Shown here: positions 45,176-60,018 of the stretch, in pieces
Numbering within the stretch: the first letter of the stretch is position 1
Layout: the number at the start of each line of letters is the position of its first letter
DNA from: Chloroflexota bacterium
GTDB lineage: Bacteria > Chloroflexota > Anaerolineae > Anaerolineales > Villigracilaceae
DNA length: 64,000 bases
Assembly (NCBI GenBank): GCA_016195815.1
Contig: JACPYX010000007.1
Location: forward strand, 186,001 to 250,000
Direction: 5' to 3'
Made by a program: the position numbers and the translations under genes
Notes under the pieces: model-generated
The model's database searches: none
What the model was told of the DNA's origin: nothing
The model's input: the letters and a program-made list of their open reading frames with translations, nothing else

Positions 45176-46993
45176 ATGCAACCTATACTCAAAGTTGATC
45201 TATCCACCGGCAGGACAGAAGAATATAAAATTCCCGAAGAGTGGGAAAGGGCTTTTCTGGGAGGCGCGTCGCTGGCGGCGCGCTTGTTGTATCCATATCT
45301 GACGAAAGAACTTGATCCGTTCTCTCCCGAGGCGCCTTTACTTTTTATCAATGGCCCGCTGACCGGCACATCCGGTCCAACGGTCGGACGATTTGTTGTG
45401 TGCGGTAAAAGCCCGGCGACCATGCAATGGGCTGAGTCGCATTGCGGCGGATTTTGGGGACCTGAACTTCGTTTTGCCGGATACGATGGTTTATGGATCA
45501 CGGGAAAGGCCGAAGCGCCGGTGTATCTTTGGATCGAGAATGGCCGTTTCGAGGTCCGGCCTGCGGCGCACTTGTGGGGCAGGGATACTTACGAAACGCA
45601 GGAACTCGTCAGGCAGGAAATCAATCAGAAAGGAATCCACGTCGCGGTGATCGGGCCGGCCGCGGAGAATCGAATCTTGTTCGCGGGGATTTATTGCGAT
45701 CATGGACGAACGGCGGGACGCACCGGACTCGGTGCGGTCATGGCGTCGAAGAATCTAAAAGCGATTGCCGTGCATGGAAAGAATCAGTTGCCGCTTGTTC
45801 AGGCGGGACTTTATGCCGGGTTGCGCTCTGAATCCAACCGCGCGCTGAAAGTGGACAACGAAGCGCGCATCCTGCATGAGCTTGGCACCGCGGGTGTTGC
45901 AAACTATGCTGAATACCTCGGCTCGATGCCTGCAAAATATTATCATCAGGGCGGTTTTGATCCGGTTGACAAAGTTTCCGGCGCGAAAATGGCCGAGTCG
46001 ATTTTGTCGGGGCAAAGCGCATGTCACGCCTGCGTAATCGCGTGCGGGCGCGTTGTAAAGCTTGAAGACGGCAATAAACGCAAAGGCCCGGAATACGAAA
46101 CCATCGTTTCGTTCGGTCCGAACCTGCTGATTGATGATCTGGTCGAGATCGTTCGCCTCGGCGAATTGTGTGACCGTTACGGCATAGACACGATTAGCAC
46201 GGGCAACACCATTGGCCTGGCGTTTTATTTATTTGAACATGGCAGGATCACCACGCAAGATACCGGCGGACTTGAATTGAAATGGGGCGACGCTGTCGCT
46301 GTCCGCCAGTTGGTAAAGATGACCGTGCGGCGCGAAGGTATCGGAGAATGGATCGCGCAGGGTTCGCGGCGGTTTGGCAAGCATTTCAACGCGGAAGAAG
46401 AGGCGGTGCAGGTCAACGGACTGGAAGTGGCCTATCACGATCCGCGCGGCGTTTCTGGCATGGCGCTTTCGTATGCAACCTCACCGCGCGGCGCATGTCA
46501 TAATCAGTCCGATTATTTCTTCGTGGACTTCGGGCACACTTATCCGGAACTCGGCATTGAATATTTTTCGCGCCATGCCGAGGCAGAGAAGGCCGCCAAC
46601 GTGGCGCGTCATCAGAATTGGCGCACGGTTTACAACGCAATGGTGATGTGCATCTTCGGCAATGTTGCGCCGCAGACGCAAGTGGATTTGATCAACGCGG
46701 CCTGCGGTTATGATTGGACGATTGAAGAAATGATGAAAGCCGGCGAGCGTGGTTGGAATATGAAACGCGCCGTCAACAATCGCATGGGGCTGACTGCCGA
46801 TAACGATAAACTGCCGAAGGCCCTGCTCGAACCTTTGACGACAGGCGGGACGGAAGGCTATGTCCCGGATATTCAGGGAATGTTGCGCGCATATTATGAG
46901 GCACGCGGCTGGGATCGCGATACAGGCTATCCGACCAGGGAAAAACTTCTCGCCCTTGGGCTGGATGATGTCGCCTCGGATTTGTGGATTTAA
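45176..46993 (+). CDS. Aldehyde ferredoxin oxidoreductase family protein
   Basis: ILKVDLSTGRTEEYKIPEEWERAFLGGASLAARLLY, FVVCGKSPATMQWAESHCGGFWGPELRFAGYDGLWITGKA, GRTAGRTGLGAVMASKNLKAIAVHG, ACHACVIACGR. Confidence 0.95.
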   Translation: MQPILKVDLSTGRTEEYKIPEEWERAFLGGASLAARLLYPYLTKELDPFSPEAPLLFINGPLTGTSGPTVGRFVVCGKSPATMQWAESHCGGFWGPELRFAGYDGLWITGKAEAPVYLWIENGRFEVRPAAHLWGRDTYETQELVRQEINQKGIHVAVIGPAAENRILFAGIYCDHGRTAGRTGLGAVMASKNLKAIAVHGKNQLPLVQAGLYAGLRSESNRALKVDNEARILHELGTAGVANYAEYLGSMPAKYYHQGGFDPVDKVSGAKMAESILSGQSACHACVIACGRVVKLEDGNKRKGPEYETIVSFGPNLLIDDLVEIVRLGELCDRYGIDTISTGNTIGLAFYLFEHGRITTQDTGGLELKWGDAVAVRQLVKMTVRREGIGEWIAQGSRRFGKHFNAEEEAVQVNGLEVAYHDPRGVSGMALSYATSPRGACHNQSDYFFVDFGHTYPELGIEYFSRHAEAEKAANVARHQNWRTVYNAMVMCIFGNVAPQTQVDLINAACGYDWTIEEMMKAGERGWNMKRAVNNRMGLTADNDKLPKALLEPLTTGGTEGYVPDIQGMLRAYYEARGWDRDTGYPTREKLLALGLDDVASDLWI

Positions 46994-47047
46994 AATTTAT
47001 CACTGGGGCACAGCGACACTTTGCCTCTGCGTGTCATGGAGAGAAAA

Positions 47048-48670
47048 ATGAAACTCGTAACTGTTGAACAAATGAAATCCATCGAACAGGAAGCAGATGC
47101 CAACGGCCTGTCTTACGATGATATGATGGAAAATGCAGGCCTCGGCCTGGCGGACTTTATTCTGGATATGTTTGCAGACGAAATCGAACCTAAAGTTCTC
47201 GGGTTGGTTGGCCCCGGAAATAATGGCGGTGATACTCTGGTCGCGCTGACACATCTTGTCAAGGAAGGCTGGAAGGCAAAAGCGTATCTCGTCAAACGCA
47301 AATCGGATGAACTGGTCGGGCGATTTCAGGAAGCGGGCGGTGAAGTTGTGGCCGCATCGAAAGATAAAGAATTTGAATCGCTGGGATCAGCTTTGGAGAA
47401 CGTTGATCTTTTGTTGGACGGCGTATTGGGCACCGGCGTAAAACTGCCGCTCAAAGGCGACGTTGGCGATGTGCTCGCTGAAACAACTGCAATTCTTGAC
47501 GAATTGGATGAAGTGCCTTTTGTGATCGCGGTGGATTGTCCCTCCGGCATTGATTGCGATACAGGCGAAGCTGCCGATGAGTGCATTGCCGCGGATCTGA
47601 CTGTCACAATGGCCGCCGTCAAGCAAGGCCTGCTCAAATTGCCGGCCTTTGAGTTCGTTGGAAATTTGGAAGTTGTAGATATTGGCTTGCCCGATAACCT
47701 GCCTTCTTTGCGGACTTTGCAAATCGAAGTTGCAGTTGCCGATACGGTTGCGGAAATTTTGCCGGAGCGTCCGCTTGATTCTCACAAAGGCACGTTTGGC
47801 GCGGCACTGATCGCGGCGGGATCGGTCAATTACACCGGAGCCGCTTTATTGTCCGGGCAAGCCGCGTACCGCGTCGGCGCGGGGTTGGTCACGCTGGCTG
47901 TGCCTGCGCCGCTTCACACCGCGCTGGCCGGGCAACTTCCTGAAGCAACCTGGATACTGCTGCCTCATGAAGTTGGCGTAATTTCTGCAACTGCCGCGGA
48001 AGTTCTGGTTAAAAACTTAGAGCATGTCACCGCCTTGCTGATTGGTCCCGGTTTGGGCACGGAAGACAAGACAAAGGAATTTGTTCAAAACCTGCTGTCG
48101 GGAGAATCTGCGCCGAAGAAATCATCTTCGCGTATTGGGTTTCTGCCGAGCGAAGGCGAAAAAAAGGAAGAAGTAAATGGAAGCCTGCCGCCGGTGGTTG
48201 TGGATGCAGATGGACTGAAACTGCTTGCAAAGATTTCCGACTGGCATAAACTTTTGCCGGGCGGTTCAGTGCTTACTCCGCATCCCGGCGAGATGGCCGT
48301 GCTGACCGGTTTATCGAAAGAAGAAATCCAGGAAGATCGTCAAGCCATTGCAGGCAAGTTCGCAAAAAAATGGGGACACGTTGTCGTGCTGAAAGGCGCG
48401 TTTACAATTGTGGCTTCGCCTGATGGTCGAACGACGATCATTCCTGTCGCTTCGCCCGCTCTCGCTCGCGCTGGAACCGGCGACGTTCTCGCGGGACTGA
48501 TCGTCGGCTTGCGCGCCCAGGGCCTCGAGGCGTTTGACGCGGCCGTGGCGGGCGCATGGATCCACGCGCAGGCGGGTCTCTACGCAGCAGACGATTTGGG
48601 AACAAGCGCATCCGTGCTGGCGAGCGATGTGCTGAATTCGGTCAGCGATGTTTTGAGCGATCTAACTTGA
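47048..48670 (+). CDS. nnr: Bifunctional NAD(P)H-hydrate epimerase / ADP-dependent NAD(P)H-hydrate dehydratase
   Basis: GLVGPGNNGGDTLVALTHL (epimerase), SHKGTFGAALIAAGSVNYTGAALLSGQAAYRVGAGLVTLAVP and LTPHPGEMAVLTGLS, ARAGTGDVLAGLIVGLRAQGL (dehydratase). Confidence 0.95.
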   Translation: MKLVTVEQMKSIEQEADANGLSYDDMMENAGLGLADFILDMFADEIEPKVLGLVGPGNNGGDTLVALTHLVKEGWKAKAYLVKRKSDELVGRFQEAGGEVVAASKDKEFESLGSALENVDLLLDGVLGTGVKLPLKGDVGDVLAETTAILDELDEVPFVIAVDCPSGIDCDTGEAADECIAADLTVTMAAVKQGLLKLPAFEFVGNLEVVDIGLPDNLPSLRTLQIEVAVADTVAEILPERPLDSHKGTFGAALIAAGSVNYTGAALLSGQAAYRVGAGLVTLAVPAPLHTALAGQLPEATWILLPHEVGVISATAAEVLVKNLEHVTALLIGPGLGTEDKTKEFVQNLLSGESAPKKSSSRIGFLPSEGEKKEEVNGSLPPVVVDADGLKLLAKISDWHKLLPGGSVLTPHPGEMAVLTGLSKEEIQEDRQAIAGKFAKKWGHVVVLKGAFTIVASPDGRTTIIPVASPALARAGTGDVLAGLIVGLRAQGLEAFDAAVAGAWIHAQAGLYAADDLGTSASVLASDVLNSVSDVLSDLT

Positions 48671-49892: not shown

Positions 49893-50684
49893 CTAACCTT
49901 TCATTGGCTTTCCGCTTCCCTTGTCTTTCAGCATCATAATCTCTGCCATGATGCTGACCGCGATCTCCTCCGGGGTTTCGGCCTGCAATTCGAGTCCCAT
50001 CGGCGAATGGACGCGGGCGATCTTTTCTTCAGAGACTCCCTTTTCTTTCAAGGCTTTAACCGTCGTGGCCCACCTGCGTTTGGATCCGATCACGCCGATG
50101 TAAGCCGCGCTTGACTCAAGCAGACTCGGCAAACCCGCCGCATCCACGCCGGACCCGCGGCTGGTTACCACCAAATAAGTCCGGCGCGTGACTTTGAGTT
50201 GCTCCGTTAATTTCTCCATCGGCGCGGGGTAGTACGCGTCCGCGTCTGGGATGGATTCCGGCGTGCAAAACTCCGGCCTGTCGTCCGAGACCGCGACGCG
50301 GAAACCGAGCCACTTTGCCAAGTGGACGACGGCCTTGCCCACGTGTCCCGCGCCGATGACTACTATCATGGGTGCTGGAAGGATCGGTTCCACAAACACC
50401 TCCACCTGGCCGCCGCACACGCCGGGGTCGCCGCGTGATGGGTCAGACATTGTGTATGAGAGCAGGCGCGGCTTGCCGTCTGCAATCGCCATCCATGCTT
50501 CATCGAGCACGCGGTGTTCCAAATCCCCGCCGCCGACCGTGCCGATAAATTTTCCGTCGGGGTAGACGAGCATCTTACTGCCCACATGCCGCGGCGTGGA
50601 GCCTTCGCTTTTGACCACCGTGCATAACGCGGCAGATCCGTTATTCTTTTCGATTTCAGAGAGGGCCTGATGAATGGAAATCAT
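49893..50684 (-). CDS. XdhC/CoxI-family protein
   Basis: SALCTVVKSEGSTPRHVGSKMLVYPDGKFIGTVGGGDLEHRVLDEA ... VIGAGHVGKAVVHLAKWLGFRVAVSDDRPEF. Confidence 0.93.
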   Translation of the reverse strand: MISIHQALSEIEKNNGSAALCTVVKSEGSTPRHVGSKMLVYPDGKFIGTVGGGDLEHRVLDEAWMAIADGKPRLLSYTMSDPSRGDPGVCGGQVEVFVEPILPAPMIVVIGAGHVGKAVVHLAKWLGFRVAVSDDRPEFCTPESIPDADAYYPAPMEKLTEQLKVTRRTYLVVTSRGSGVDAAGLPSLLESSAAYIGVIGSKRRWATTVKALKEKGVSEEKIARVHSPMGLELQAETPEEIAVSIMAEIMMLKDKGSGKPMKG

Positions 50685-54895: not shown

Positions 54896-57880
54896 TCAGC
54901 GATGCTGTATTGCCTTCCAAACTTTTTCAGGCGTAATCGGATTTTCGTCAATGTTTACTCCGACGGCATCCAGCACGGCATTGCCCACCGCCGGCGCGAC
55001 GCCATCCATTGGAATCTCCGCCACTGCCTTGACGCCGAACGGATGTGATGGCTCGAATGTTTCTACAAAAATTGTTTCGAGTTCCGGCATTTCGTCCGCG
55101 CGGAAAATGTGATAACGGTCAAGATCATGTTCGACGGCATAGCCTTTATCGTCGAAACGCATTTCTTCGCAGACGGCGTAACCAAGCGCCTGAGTCATGC
55201 CGCCTTCGATCTGGCCGGAAGCGGTAAGCGGATTTACGATGACGCCCGAATCGACCGCCATCACAAGTTTATCAACCGTCACCTGGCCTGTTTCCACATC
55301 CACAGTGACTTCAGCAAACTGCGCGGCGAACGGCGGCGGCGATGACGGGGAAACATACGAACCGATGCCCATGATCTGTTCCTGCTCGCTGCGATGCAAA
55401 GTATCCAGCGCGACCTCGGCAAGTGAGACTGATTTGCCATTGGGCGCGATGGCCTGGCGATTTGACAATCGGATATTCGAATATTCGGCTTCGCCCAGCA
55501 TTTTTGCTGCGCGAATCTTTATTCTCTCCGCCGCCATTTCCGCGGCCTTGACAGCCGCCGCGCCGGAAATATAAGTTGTCGAAGATGCGTACGCGCCTTT
55601 GTCGAACGGCGTGAAGTCCGTGTCGGACGAGTAGGTTAGGATGTCTTCGAGCGGCACACCCAAAACTTCTGCGACCATCTGCGCGATGACCGTGTCTGAG
55701 CCGGTGCCCAAGTCTGTCGCGCCGACCAAAAGATTGAACGAGCCATCGTCGTTCATCTTGACCGACGCGCCGCCCATATCCAAATATGGAATCGCAGTTC
55801 CCTGCATAACCATCGCGACGCCAATGCCGTGCCGTAAGGGCGGCTTACCAAGCTGCCCTACACGCCATTCTTCATTCCCAAATTTGTCATCCCATCCGAT
55901 CGCGGCTTTGCCCTGCGCCACACATTGTTCGAGTCCAACAGTATGAATGATCTCCGGGCGCGGCTCGCGGCCTTCGTTCCAGGCTGTCGAAAATGGATGA
56001 TACTCTCCGGCGTGGATGGCGTTCTTTAAACGGAACTCGATCGGGTCGAGATTCAAGGCGCGGGCGATCTTTTCCATGTGACGTTCGACCGGCCAATAGC
56101 CTTGCGGCACGCCGTAGCCGCGGAACGCGCCGGCGGGCGGCGTGTTGGTGTAAACCACGTCTGCATAAAAACGAATGTTGGGCTGTTTGCGATATTCGCC
56201 GTCGCCAACATACAGCGCCATGGATTTATGTCCGGTGTTGCCGGTGACGGTCAACGCGTGACAGCCGTACGCGCCGGTATCGCTCAGCACTTTCATTTCA
56301 TTGGCTGTGATCGTGCCGTCTTTTTTGACGCCGGTCTTCATCCAGACTCTCATCGGATGACGCGAACGCGCCGCGCTGAATTCTTCCTCGCGCGTATATT
56401 CAAAAATAACCGGACGTTTGGTCGCAATGGTTAAATGCGCGGCCACGTCTTCGATCAACATTTCCTGCTTGCCGCCGAATCCGCCGCCGATGCGCGGCTT
56501 GATGACGCGTATACGTTTGATCGGCAATCCCAGCACGGGCGCGATCATGCGCCGCACATGAAACGGCACTTGCGTCGAAGTGCGGATGACCAGCCGGTCA
56601 TCTTCGTCCCAATACGTGACCACCACGTGCGGCTCGATGTGCGCCTGCTGAACTTTTGGCACGGCATACTCGCCTTCGAAAACCTGGTCGGCTTCGGCGA
56701 ATCCTTTGTCAAGGTTGCCGATGTCAATTCGGATTTCAGCGGCCAGGTTTCGGGTCGGGTCTGAATCGGCGAAGTTGACATATTCCGCTTCGTCATGGAT
56801 TCGGATCGCATCCGGTTTCATCGCGTCCGCCGGGTCCAAAATCGAATCCAGAATTTCGTATTCCACCTCGATCAATTTCAACGCCTGTTCTGCAATCGCT
56901 TCAGACTCCGCCGCGACGAACGCCACGCGGTCGCCGACGAATCGAACTTTGTTATCGAGCGAGAACATGTCGAGCGGGCCGGGAATCGGGTCTGATTGGC
57001 CGGCGGTTGAATACACTACGCGCGGAATATCCTGCCACGTCAGCACTGCCGCCACGCCTTCAAGCGCGCGCGCTTTGCTCGCGTCAATCTTTTTAATGCG
57101 CGCATGAGCATGAGGGCTATGTAAAACTTTTGCAATCAACATGCCGCGCATATCAATATCGGCGGTGAAAGCGGGCTTGCCCTGCACGAGTTTGACCGCG
57201 TCCACTTTTTTTTCCGGCTTGCCGACGACTGCATACGGATCTTTTTCGGGTGCGACGACGACTCTCGGCATGACTTTGGTCTGCACGCTGGTTGTTTCGC
57301 TCATGTCCGACCCTTCAGCGGGTCCCGTTGTTGGCGGCATGAACCACGCTGACGCATCGGACTCGCCTGCTGGAATATCTCCGCGCAAAACTGCCGCGGC
57401 GCGCAGAACGGCCTGCACCGGTTTGGCATATCCCGTGCAACGGCACAGCACACCGGAAATTGCTTCGCGTACTTCGGCTTCGGTCGGGTTTGGATTTTTT
57501 TCAAGCAGCGATTTTGCCGCCAGAATTTGAGCGGGTGTGCAATATCCGCATTGGATGGCGCCGGTCTCGACGAAAGCCTGTTGAAGCGGATGCAGGCCGC
57601 CGGTTTTTTTCCAGCCTTGGTCGGGATGCTCTCCGAGCGCTTCAATCGTGACGATGTTATGCCCTTCGGCATTCGCTGTACTCGCTGCACTCGCGGCGAG
57701 CATCGAACCTGCGTTGATGGGTTTGCCATCCAGCAGAACAGTATCCGCGCCGGTCAGGCCCTGTTCGTCGCCGAATTTGACTCCGTAAAACCCGAGACGC
57801 CGAACAACAGCCAGTAAAGTTTCAGAGGGCGCGCATTCGATTTCGTGTTTAATGGCATTTATGCTGAGTGTGATGTTCAT
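54896..57880 (-). CDS. Xanthine dehydrogenase/aldehyde oxidase family molybdenum hydroxylase: small and large subunits fused; N-terminal [2Fe-2S] domain degenerate
   Basis: IQCGYCTPAQILAAKSLL...GVLCRCTGYAKPVQAV ([2Fe-2S]-binding C-terminal half) and large-subunit motifs GGGFGGKQEMLIED, GAFRGYGVPQGYW; N-terminal half reads GVKFGDEQGLTGADTVLLDGKPINAGS. Confidence 0.93.
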   Translation of the reverse strand: MNITLSINAIKHEIECAPSETLLAVVRRLGFYGVKFGDEQGLTGADTVLLDGKPINAGSMLAASAASTANAEGHNIVTIEALGEHPDQGWKKTGGLHPLQQAFVETGAIQCGYCTPAQILAAKSLLEKNPNPTEAEVREAISGVLCRCTGYAKPVQAVLRAAAVLRGDIPAGESDASAWFMPPTTGPAEGSDMSETTSVQTKVMPRVVVAPEKDPYAVVGKPEKKVDAVKLVQGKPAFTADIDMRGMLIAKVLHSPHAHARIKKIDASKARALEGVAAVLTWQDIPRVVYSTAGQSDPIPGPLDMFSLDNKVRFVGDRVAFVAAESEAIAEQALKLIEVEYEILDSILDPADAMKPDAIRIHDEAEYVNFADSDPTRNLAAEIRIDIGNLDKGFAEADQVFEGEYAVPKVQQAHIEPHVVVTYWDEDDRLVIRTSTQVPFHVRRMIAPVLGLPIKRIRVIKPRIGGGFGGKQEMLIEDVAAHLTIATKRPVIFEYTREEEFSAARSRHPMRVWMKTGVKKDGTITANEMKVLSDTGAYGCHALTVTGNTGHKSMALYVGDGEYRKQPNIRFYADVVYTNTPPAGAFRGYGVPQGYWPVERHMEKIARALNLDPIEFRLKNAIHAGEYHPFSTAWNEGREPRPEIIHTVGLEQCVAQGKAAIGWDDKFGNEEWRVGQLGKPPLRHGIGVAMVMQGTAIPYLDMGGASVKMNDDGSFNLLVGATDLGTGSDTVIAQMVAEVLGVPLEDILTYSSDTDFTPFDKGAYASSTTYISGAAAVKAAEMAAERIKIRAAKMLGEAEYSNIRLSNRQAIAPNGKSVSLAEVALDTLHRSEQEQIMGIGSYVSPSSPPPFAAQFAEVTVDVETGQVTVDKLVMAVDSGVIVNPLTASGQIEGGMTQALGYAVCEEMRFDDKGYAVEHDLDRYHIFRADEMPELETIFVETFEPSHPFGVKAVAEIPMDGVAPAVGNAVLDAVGVNIDENPITPEKVWKAIQHR

Positions 57881-57928: not shown

Positions 57929-58723
57929 TTATTGGGTTGTATCCATGCATCTCTTCGCCAGCGTCGCGGCGATGTCCATGCGATACTCGGCGGAAGCCCA
58001 TTCGTCCCCGGCTTCGTGGAAGGCGTTGCGCGCCGCAGATTCGATTCCTTCGGCTTCGGTCCCGTCCATGGCGAGCATGGGAGATTTTCCGTAGCCGCCA
58101 AGCGCCAGGCGTGTGCGGCCTGAATTCCATCGCGCCAGCGCGGCACACACGATGGGTTTGTCCGCGGGCGTGCGCGAGACGTATTCAAATGCGAATTTGG
58201 TTTGGACGGGAATGGTAATGGAGGTGATGAGTCCGCGCGGGCGGAGGGGGATAAAGTCGCCGATGTTCGACGTTCGATATTCGATTTTCGAATTATCGAC
58301 ATCGTACCCGAAGGGTAATATCGCTTGCTCGAGCTTTGCGTCTAGCGCAAGCAGTGCAGTCACGAAGGTGGATCGTCCATCGCAGGCCGCAATTGCCCCG
58401 GCAACTGTGGCCGCGTTGCGGATGTTGAGCGGCGCTTCGAGTTTGATGGCCCGTTTCAACGCCTCGGGACAATTTTCGTTTTCCATCAATTGTTGAAGCG
58501 TGACGGTCGCGCCGATTTCAAGACGTTGCCCTGAGCTTGTCGAAGGGCTGTTCCCGTTTTTCTTGATCTGGTTGATGCCGAGGGCTTGAAGGTCAACTAC
58601 TTCAACGGAGTCCGCTTGCGGCCAGGAAAGAAGCGTCCCGCCGCCGAGGGGAACTGTATTGGGCTGTGCGAGGAGAGTCAGGGCTTCGTCTAACGTTTGA
58701 GGGCGATGATAGTCTGTGATCAT
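57929..58723 (-). CDS. FAD-binding subunit of the molybdenum hydroxylase (CoxM/XdhB-like)
   Basis: ITDYHRPQTLDEALTLLAQPNTVPLGGGTLLSWPQ ... LNIRNAATVAGAIAACDGRSTFVTALLALDAKLE. Confidence 0.9.
   Translation of the reverse strand: MITDYHRPQTLDEALTLLAQPNTVPLGGGTLLSWPQADSVEVVDLQALGINQIKKNGNSPSTSSGQRLEIGATVTLQQLMENENCPEALKRAIKLEAPLNIRNAATVAGAIAACDGRSTFVTALLALDAKLEQAILPFGYDVDNSKIEYRTSNIGDFIPLRPRGLITSITIPVQTKFAFEYVSRTPADKPIVCAALARWNSGRTRLALGGYGKSPMLAMDGTEAEGIESAARNAFHEAGDEWASAEYRMDIAATLAKRCMDTTQ
58528..58548. repeat. Dispersed palindromic repeat, copy 2 (GCCCTGAGCTTGTCGAAGGGC), inside a CDS
   Basis: Exact 21-nt match to 20461..20481; translated as PSTSSGQ in the FAD-subunit frame. Confidence 0.85.
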
Positions 58724-58773
58724 GCTCTTATTATACGGCAGGCCAATCACTTTGGCTGTTGAGATTGATCAGA

Positions 58774-59250
58774 CTATTCGGGATAAACCTTCCATCCCAA
58801 TTCGTCCAACCTTGATAAATCGAATTGATCTTCCGGCACGTTGATGTGCAGGGCATTGGCTTCGGCGAGTAGTTCGCCGCTTTCGTCATAAATGCCCGCC
58901 CAGCTTTCAGCCATTTTTGAGCGGACCTTTCCGGCTTTGCCGATGATTTTTAAAAGCTTTCCGACCGGCACATTCTTGCGATACTTCACTTCGAGTTTGC
59001 CGGTGAACATGAAGCGCGGATTGTCCGCGCCGCCCATGTGGGCGCGCCCGCTGATCTCATCCAGAAGCGCGGCGACGATGCCGCCATGCAGAACGCCGGG
59101 ATAGCCCTGGAAATGTTCGGGTGCGATGTATTTGCTTTCAATCACGCCAGGTTCGGTTTCGTACATGTGCAAATGCAAACCGATGGGATTCTCAAGTCCG
59201 CAAATGAAACACATCCTGGAATTGGGCTGCTTGATTGGATAATCGGACAT
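58774..59250 (-). CDS. PaaI-like hotdog-fold thioesterase
   Basis: MCFICGLENPIGLHLHMYETEPGVIESKYIAPEHFQGYPGVLHGGIVAALLDEISGRA. Confidence 0.88.
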   Translation of the reverse strand: MSDYPIKQPNSRMCFICGLENPIGLHLHMYETEPGVIESKYIAPEHFQGYPGVLHGGIVAALLDEISGRAHMGGADNPRFMFTGKLEVKYRKNVPVGKLLKIIGKAGKVRSKMAESWAGIYDESGELLAEANALHINVPEDQFDLSRLDELGWKVYPE

Positions 59251-59943
59251 TTACTTTTCTCCGTGGTGAATTGCGATGGTTCCAAACATCAGTTGTTTGA
59301 AGTTAACGTTTTTGAATCCGGCAGTGGACATGTGCGATGCCAATTCTTCGGCGGTTAAAAACCCTTCGGTTGAGTCGGGCAGGTAATTGTACGCGTCTTT
59401 GAAGCCCGAAAGCAGCCCGCCCAAAATCGGGATGATGACGTGCATGTGAATCCAAATGAACGGTGAAAGTAAATTTTTCTTCGGGCGCGTGGTGTCGAGA
59501 ATGACGATTCGTCCGCCGGGTTTGAGTAAACGATGTTGTTCATCGAGCGCGCGCTGCAGGTCTATGACGTTGCGCATGAGAAAGCCGGAGACGACTGCGT
59601 CGAAGGTGGAATCTTTGAAGGGCAGATTCAGCGCGTCTGCCGCGCACCACGACAGGCTCCCGTTATTTTGGCCGACTCTCATCATCTCGAGCGTGAAGTC
59701 TGCGGCCGTAACGCGCGCTTGCGGATTCTGTATCAGGGCCTCGCGTGCCAGGTCGCCGGTGCCCGTTCCCAGGTCGAGGAGCGATGCATTGGGTTTGAGT
59801 CCGGCCAGTTGGATAACAGTTTTGCGCCAGCGGAGGTCTTGTCCGCCCGTCATGAGTCGATTCATCAGATCGTAACGATGAGCGATGCGCGTGAACATGG
59901 ATTGAACATAGCGGGCGCGTTCCTGCCCTGAAAGATGGGTCAT
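59251..59943 (-). CDS. UbiE/MenG-type methyltransferase
   Basis: MFTRIAHRYDLMNRLMTGGQDLRWRKTVIQLAGLKPNASLLDLGTGTGDLA ... FLMRNVIDLQRALDEQHRLLKPGGRIVILDTTRPK. Start at ATG 59943 with SD aggag. Confidence 0.93.
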   Translation of the reverse strand: MTHLSGQERARYVQSMFTRIAHRYDLMNRLMTGGQDLRWRKTVIQLAGLKPNASLLDLGTGTGDLAREALIQNPQARVTAADFTLEMMRVGQNNGSLSWCAADALNLPFKDSTFDAVVSGFLMRNVIDLQRALDEQHRLLKPGGRIVILDTTRPKKNLLSPFIWIHMHVIIPILGGLLSGFKDAYNYLPDSTEGFLTAEELASHMSTAGFKNVNFKQLMFGTIAIHHGEK

Positions 59944-60018
59944 AAGGCTCCTGTGAATTTTGTCCATTATAAACGCTCAAATCGCCTGTTATACTGCGTT
60001 TTATTTTGTGGAGTTTGA

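Follow-up and report, generated by a model that had tools for sequence, protein, structure and literature searches.

A Chloroflexota molybdenum hydroxylase without N-terminal [2Fe-2S] ligands, and apparent repeated loss of Fe-S clusters in its XdhD-type family

The window analysed here, a stretch of 64,000 nucleotides from a Chloroflexota bacterium, carries on its reverse strand a gene for a fused iron-sulfur and molybdenum (Mo) protein, which adjoins a gene for a YgfM-like FAD-binding subunit (Table 1). A gene for an XdhC-type Mo-cofactor maturation protein lies on the same strand. A preliminary description of this DNA, made from the letters alone, had quoted several reverse-complement codons from the start of the Mo gene; our re-reading of the codons and of the translation of the ORF (M1...GVKFGDEQGLTGADTVLLDGKPINAG) agrees with them.

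Table 1 Features of the Mo hydroxylase locus and of the related operons
Feature	Coordinates	Strand	Basis
Fused Fe-S/Mo protein, 994 aa	54896..57880	-	Pfam and NCBIfam matches
Former N-terminal cluster loop, residues 35-58 (KFGDEQGLTGADTVLLDGKPINAG)	57707..57778	-	Alignment with E. coli XdhC and 1SIJ
Codon at ligand position 1, D38	57767-57769	-	
Codon at ligand position 2, T43	57752-57754	-	
Codon at ligand position 3, D46	57743-57745	-	
Codon at ligand position 4, G58	57707-57709	-	
Intact second (Mo-proximal) [2Fe-2S] motif, C111/C114 and C146/C148	57437..57550	-	Fer2_2 match; 76/76 homologues
Catalytic Glu955 (family Mo-site glutamate)	55016..55018	-	Alignment to solved structures; homologue columns
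Glu636, aligned with E. coli XdhD Glu606, insertion loop	55973..55975	-	Alignment and column counts
FAD-binding subunit, YgfM-like, 273 aa from GTG (ATG 9 codons in)	57929..58750	-	FAD_binding_5 and TIGR03312
XdhC-type Mo-cofactor maturation protein	49893..50684	-	XdhC_C and XdhC_CoxI
Small hotdog/thioesterase-like ORF and UbiE-type methyltransferase	58774..59967	-	Positional neighbours of FAD gene
Apparent SsnA-to-Mo operon	L249:5255-15393, L250:4461-16547, L252:6103-18010		

Pfam matches to the fused protein comprise Fer2_2, Ald_Xan_dh_C, MoCoBD_1 and MoCoBD_2, with E values of 2.3e-80 and 2.9e-68 for the two MoCoBD domains and 3.1e-27 for the a/b hammerhead domain, and the protein has no Pfam match to Fer2. 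As the preliminary description had it, the Mo domain motifs are intact (GGGFGGK is present alongside Glu955) and the second [2Fe-2S] domain is kept, with C111, C114, C146 and C148 all in place. The Mo domains, the Mo-site motifs and the second cluster identify the protein as a member of the xanthine oxidase (Mo hydroxylase) family, one in which the ligands of the N-terminal cluster are absent.

The N-terminal plant-type [2Fe-2S] cluster of this family is held by a CxxxxCxxC...C motif. In an alignment with E. coli XdhC (QGCCVGECGACTVLVDG..DSC) and with D. gigas aldehyde oxidoreductase, 1SIJ (GCEQGQCGACSVILDG..RAC), the loop is ungapped and shows no shift, and the four ligand columns are occupied in the window protein by D38, T43, D46 and G58. 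This alignment, which the preliminary description had proposed, confirms its claim that all four cysteines are replaced. The sole remaining cysteine in residues 1-110 is C16, which lies outside the loop, and thus there is no shifted ligand set.

The loss is shared by an entire clade. When the Cys-less N-terminal segment was used to scan GTDB species, each represented by one genome, relatives were found in 142 places (species), all with Chloroflexi or Anaerolineae titles, and 80 of these were kept and read. All 80 are Cys-free, and their record titles name Anaerolineae, Anaerolineales, Anaerolinea, Brevefilum, Villigracilaceae or plain Chloroflexi. The motif K[FH]GDE is directly visible in 79 of them, and the remaining one (L107) reads D-S-D-G at the ligand positions. 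Across 76 full-length homologues that have lost the N cluster and kept the C cluster (one of which, L213, probably represents a separate loss event), D38, E39 and D46 are each identical in every sequence, as are the four cysteines of the second cluster, while Ser (58) or Thr (18) occupies position 43 and 69 sequences have Gly at position 58. The loop consensus in these window-type proteins is GDExG[LM][ST]G[AS]D.

Mean pairwise identity among the 76 homologues reaches 0.853 in the loop (residues 35-58), compared with 0.836 in the Mo domain and 0.585 in residues 1-34, which indicates that the loop is constrained at least as much as the catalytic domain. Many Cys-intact relatives (39/58) have E39 as well, and hence only D38 and D46 are new residues. 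Within its domain no part is more conserved than the loop, which bears out the earlier argument that the residues kept around the lost ligands speak against simple decay. The preliminary description had also regarded homologues with intact cysteines as a possible sign of error. Close sister lineages do keep all eight cysteines, but they do not indicate an error because the Cys-less subfamily spans well over a hundred species.

The top NCBIfam matches of the window protein are NF043082 and TIGR03313 (XdhD/YgfN, the 'selenate reductase' Mo subunit), both under cut-off, with TIGR03313 scoring 694.7 bits against a curated cut-off of 1101.9. Judged by its sequence, the protein belongs to the XdhD-type fused family, whose Mo subunit model TIGR03313 finds a strong match in 196 of 396 Anaerolineae genomes sampled, or about half. 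Glu636 of the window protein aligns with Glu606 of E. coli XdhD in an insertion loop that is absent from E. coli XdhA, and both this glutamate and Glu955 are invariant in homologues that have lost the N cluster (76), that are Cys-intact (58) or that have lost both clusters (29). Glu606 has been proposed to function in substrate orientation, and purified XdhD with a co-purifying protein of roughly 30 kDa is reported to convert urate and NADH to 2,8-dioxopurine (yanthine) in assays with 10 uM enzyme and 1 mM substrate (PMC12507026).

Several known systems resemble the window protein in part. E. coli XdhD-YgfM (TIGR03313/TIGR03312) has the same fused small/large layout, a FAD subunit encoded nearby, the Glu606 loop and Asp at N-cluster ligand positions 1 and 3, but it is also missing the second cluster, which the window protein keeps. 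The Cetobacterium somerae XdhD homologue (L137), encoded in a plasmid cluster with ssnA, shares the fused layout and has a FAD subunit directly upstream within a purine gene cluster, yet all eight of its Fe-S cysteines are present. The D. gigas enzyme aligns over the full length as a fused two-cluster and Mo chain; it has both clusters and no FAD subunit (PMC3958847), whereas the window protein is without the N-terminal cluster and its gene adjoins a FAD gene. The best PDB sequence match of the Mo domain is 4-hydroxybenzoyl-CoA reductase (1RM6), a reductive dehydroxylase of the family that is distant in sequence and differs in having separate subunits and both [2Fe-2S] clusters.

Although the loss of ligands noted in the preliminary description is real, the enzyme is not an isolated case, given that E. 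coli XdhD and many Chloroflexota proteins also lack clusters. Among 177 fused proteins, 61 have both clusters, 78 lack only the N cluster, 4 lack only the C cluster and 34 lack both, with the window clade over-represented in these counts because its segment was the query of the species scan; members outside Chloroflexota come from three genomes only (E. coli, Cetobacterium and Shinella). Trees were computed by quick searches from the Mo domain only, with the Fe-S domains excluded. A tree of 117 rows implies at least six changes of N-cluster state and eight of C-cluster state, and a tree of 60 rows under a mixture model gives seven of each.

A clade of 29 rows without either cluster (support 100) has a Cys-intact sister, L011. 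The ligand columns of E. coli K-12 MG1655 XdhD read D-A-D-S and S-N-S-D, leaving none of the eight Fe-S cysteines, and this protein groups with the Cetobacterium XdhD that keeps them all. The C cluster alone is lost in L131/L210/L220 and in L019 (an ORF from base 70; sister to the intact L025). In these four the N-terminal motif is intact and the Mo-proximal region reads QSGYNTP..VRDTG or QSGYDAP..SRETG. In the 60-row tree, rows of the window clade and intact rows intermingle with low support, which, together with the quick searches, makes the exact number of events uncertain. On these trees the N cluster, the C cluster or both appear to have been lost several independent times, several per cluster being the safe statement. 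Parsimony cannot separate gain from loss, but repeated gain of complete four-Cys sets is implausible.

The residues that replace the cysteines recur. N-cluster ligand 1 becomes Asp or Ser, C-cluster ligand 1 is nearly always Ser, and C-cluster ligand 4 is Asp or Glu. Over 13 loss events, hand-listed from the tree with one majority state each, 22 of the 52 positions that lost a ligand carry Asp or Glu, compared with a frequency of 12.8% in these proteins overall (p about 1e-7); when the less securely placed rows are removed, the count is 13 of 32 (p about 8e-5). Four proteins outside the window clade (L219, L172, L213 and L187) have a GDE..SG.D loop like that of the clade, but the rest of their N-terminal domain is unlike it. 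This likeness, confined to the loop, suggests convergence rather than domain transfer, and spread of the Cys-less domain by recombination is not supported. Because an oxidised [2Fe-2S](Cys)4 cluster has a formal charge of 2-, a pair of carboxylates could plausibly replace the charge of the lost cluster.

Gene neighbourhoods point to a function in purine metabolism. In L249 (Cys-intact) and in L250 and L252 (window clade), genes on one strand run in the order SsnA, F420:NADP reductase-like, CofE-like, CofD-like, CofC-like, LLM-class F420-type oxidoreductase, FAD subunit and Mo protein, with XdhC immediately downstream in L249 and L250 and a few extra genes within the block in L250 and L252; the F420-synthesis names are our own reading of the sequences, whereas the LLM and SsnA names, like domain names in relatives generally, are profile matches. 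Chloroflexota SsnA genes near a putative F420-dependent dehydrogenase are also described in the XdhD report (PMC12507026). Hand-compiled counts for the 19 family genomes that contain both genes place SsnA within 45 kb of the Mo gene in 9, where random placement expects 3% per genome. The neighbours of the clade lacking both clusters, and of some intact members, include SsnA, YgeY, YqeB and YqeC types, which may likewise point to purines. Frequent neighbours that we judged to be positional are a DNA methyltransferase, an M16 peptidase and a DHH pyrophosphatase.

The XdhD-specific glutamate and the operon of SsnA, F420 genes, FAD subunit, Mo protein and XdhC together suggest that the substrate is probably a purine that undergoes urate-type reductive dehydroxylation. 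In the window genome, however, the block is split into two pieces (L248 and the window), with SsnA and the LLM gene on the same contig and 117 kb separating SsnA from the Mo gene. This genome does encode YgeY and a hydantoinase, but a search of 23 genomes found no 2,3-diaminopropionate ammonia-lyase. Both the distance to SsnA and the missing ammonia-lyase count against a complete urate pathway, and the purine assignment is therefore no more than likely.

As the preliminary description had noted, a separate FAD subunit is still encoded next to the Mo gene. It is syntenic in 43 relatives of the window clade (the XdhC-type gene is so in 45), and FAD subunits are also encoded beside many cluster-free members, from which it appears that a flavin and a Mo centre are present together where the relay is partly or wholly missing. 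The FAD subunit motifs are GGGT and VAGA, compared with (A/G)GG(T/S) and T.(G/A)G, and comparable motifs are found in Cys-intact relatives. We considered a loss of the FAD site along with FeS-II on the basis of GGGT/VAG[TA], but dropped it because the Cys-intact sister L231 has GGGS and DGRSP and ordinary FAD subunits have VAGN.

In this enzyme family the relay runs from Mo to FeS-I, FeS-II and FAD. Since FeS-II (N-terminal, distal, FAD-side) is absent, the textbook relay through it is impossible in the window protein. Our preferred reading, to which we give about an even chance, is that the protein is a working XdhD-type Mo (de)hydroxylase with a shortened electron relay (FeS-I kept, FeS-II gone), probably with a purine substrate. 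If this model is correct, the new carboxylates would substitute for the lost cluster in negative charge and packing, and the N-terminal domain would stay folded and able to dock the FAD subunit, as a scaffold that carries no electrons. FeS-I would be the site of electron exchange, whether directly with an external donor or acceptor or with the flavin through a slow, long hop, in an enzyme whose ancestral operon may have comprised SsnA, F420 genes, the F420-type oxidoreductase, FAD subunit, Mo protein and XdhC. The constraint on the loop, the 142 relatives, the repeated losses, the Glu636 loop, the SsnA operon and the activity of XdhD are consistent with the shortened relay. Retention of the FAD subunit counts against it, as such a relay would not obviously need one. 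A full-length structure model has a pLDDT of 44 and a model of 165 residues has 62.9; the top Foldseek matches of the latter are all family small subunits, with a TM of about 0.4, and its loop confidence is below 50. Given this low confidence and TM, neither model was used for geometry.

A different account dispenses with the relay. The Mo centre would be redox-neutral, hydroxylating one purine and dehydroxylating another (for example, xanthine at C8 to urate and urate at C6 to 2,8-dioxopurine), a net hydroxyl transfer or isomerisation without external electrons. For the cluster-free forms this would be the simplest chemistry that needs no relay, and it agrees with the conserved Mo-site residues of the 29-row clade and E. 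coli XdhD, which have no ligands at either site, as well as with repeated independent loss of either cluster, which is expected if neither is needed. However, the window clade strictly keeps FeS-I (with one exception, L097), FAD subunits persist beside cluster-free members, and E. coli XdhD is reported with NADH as the reductant, in a source whose available part shows no control without NADH (PMC12507026). We consider this account unlikely. Also rather improbable is its extension to a branch of the family that would perform Mo chemistry without an Fe-S relay by moving hydroxyl between two purines at one Mo site, with the window protein half-way and E. coli XdhD and the 29-row Anaerolineae clade as the end stage.

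The rebuilt loop might instead bind another partner, a mononuclear metal or a protein, through D38, E39 and D46. The invariance of these residues in the 76 homologues and the origin of the GDE..SG.D loop more than once in unrelated branches favour such binding, but with E39 common in Cys-intact relatives only two residues are new, and the loop is modelled with confidence below 50; we find the proposal doubtful. Ligand loss is the usual first step of decay, and the N-terminal domain could accordingly be a relic without function. A relic would not be expected to hold its loop more conserved than the rest of the domain, and sequencing or assembly error is rejected as the source of the loss by the same residues in 80 independent species records and an open frame without stops, which makes relic or error very improbable. 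A normal cluster formed by four cysteines that have simply moved elsewhere is hardly credible in view of the ungapped alignment with XdhC and 1SIJ and the solitary C16 in the N-terminal 110 residues.

Xanthine-oxidase-type enzymes are taken to contain two [2Fe-2S] clusters as a matter of course, an assumption that genome annotation shares. Repeated, convergent and conserved loss would mean that the relay can be dropped piece by piece within one functional family. XdhD itself is known, and its cluster loss is apparently new: the open-access literature that we searched yielded no report of missing Fe-S ligands in XdhD or its relatives. The family includes the urate-reducing XdhD of gut E. coli, which is of interest for gout, and the question arises of how electrons reach the Mo centre of that enzyme, if they are needed at all. 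RefSeq annotates E. coli xdhD (b2881, L028:15317-18187) as Mo-binding and Fe-S binding, although its ligand cysteines are all absent.

Other genes of the locus and genome may be recorded here. An aldehyde ferredoxin oxidoreductase (AFOR_N/AFOR_C; 45176-46993 on the forward strand of the window), a tungsten/molybdenum enzyme belonging to a different family, is encoded some 8 kb from the Mo hydroxylase. It is followed at 47021-48670 (forward strand) by an NAD(P)H-hydrate epimerase/dehydratase gene (YjeF_N and Carb_kinase), which neighbours the Mo gene in 29 relatives. The window genome has a YqeB gene at G000:C10:13287-14039. A SelD gene (G000:C5:18226-19158; L260) scores above cut-off and contains one in-frame TGA, as in selenocysteine-containing SelD.
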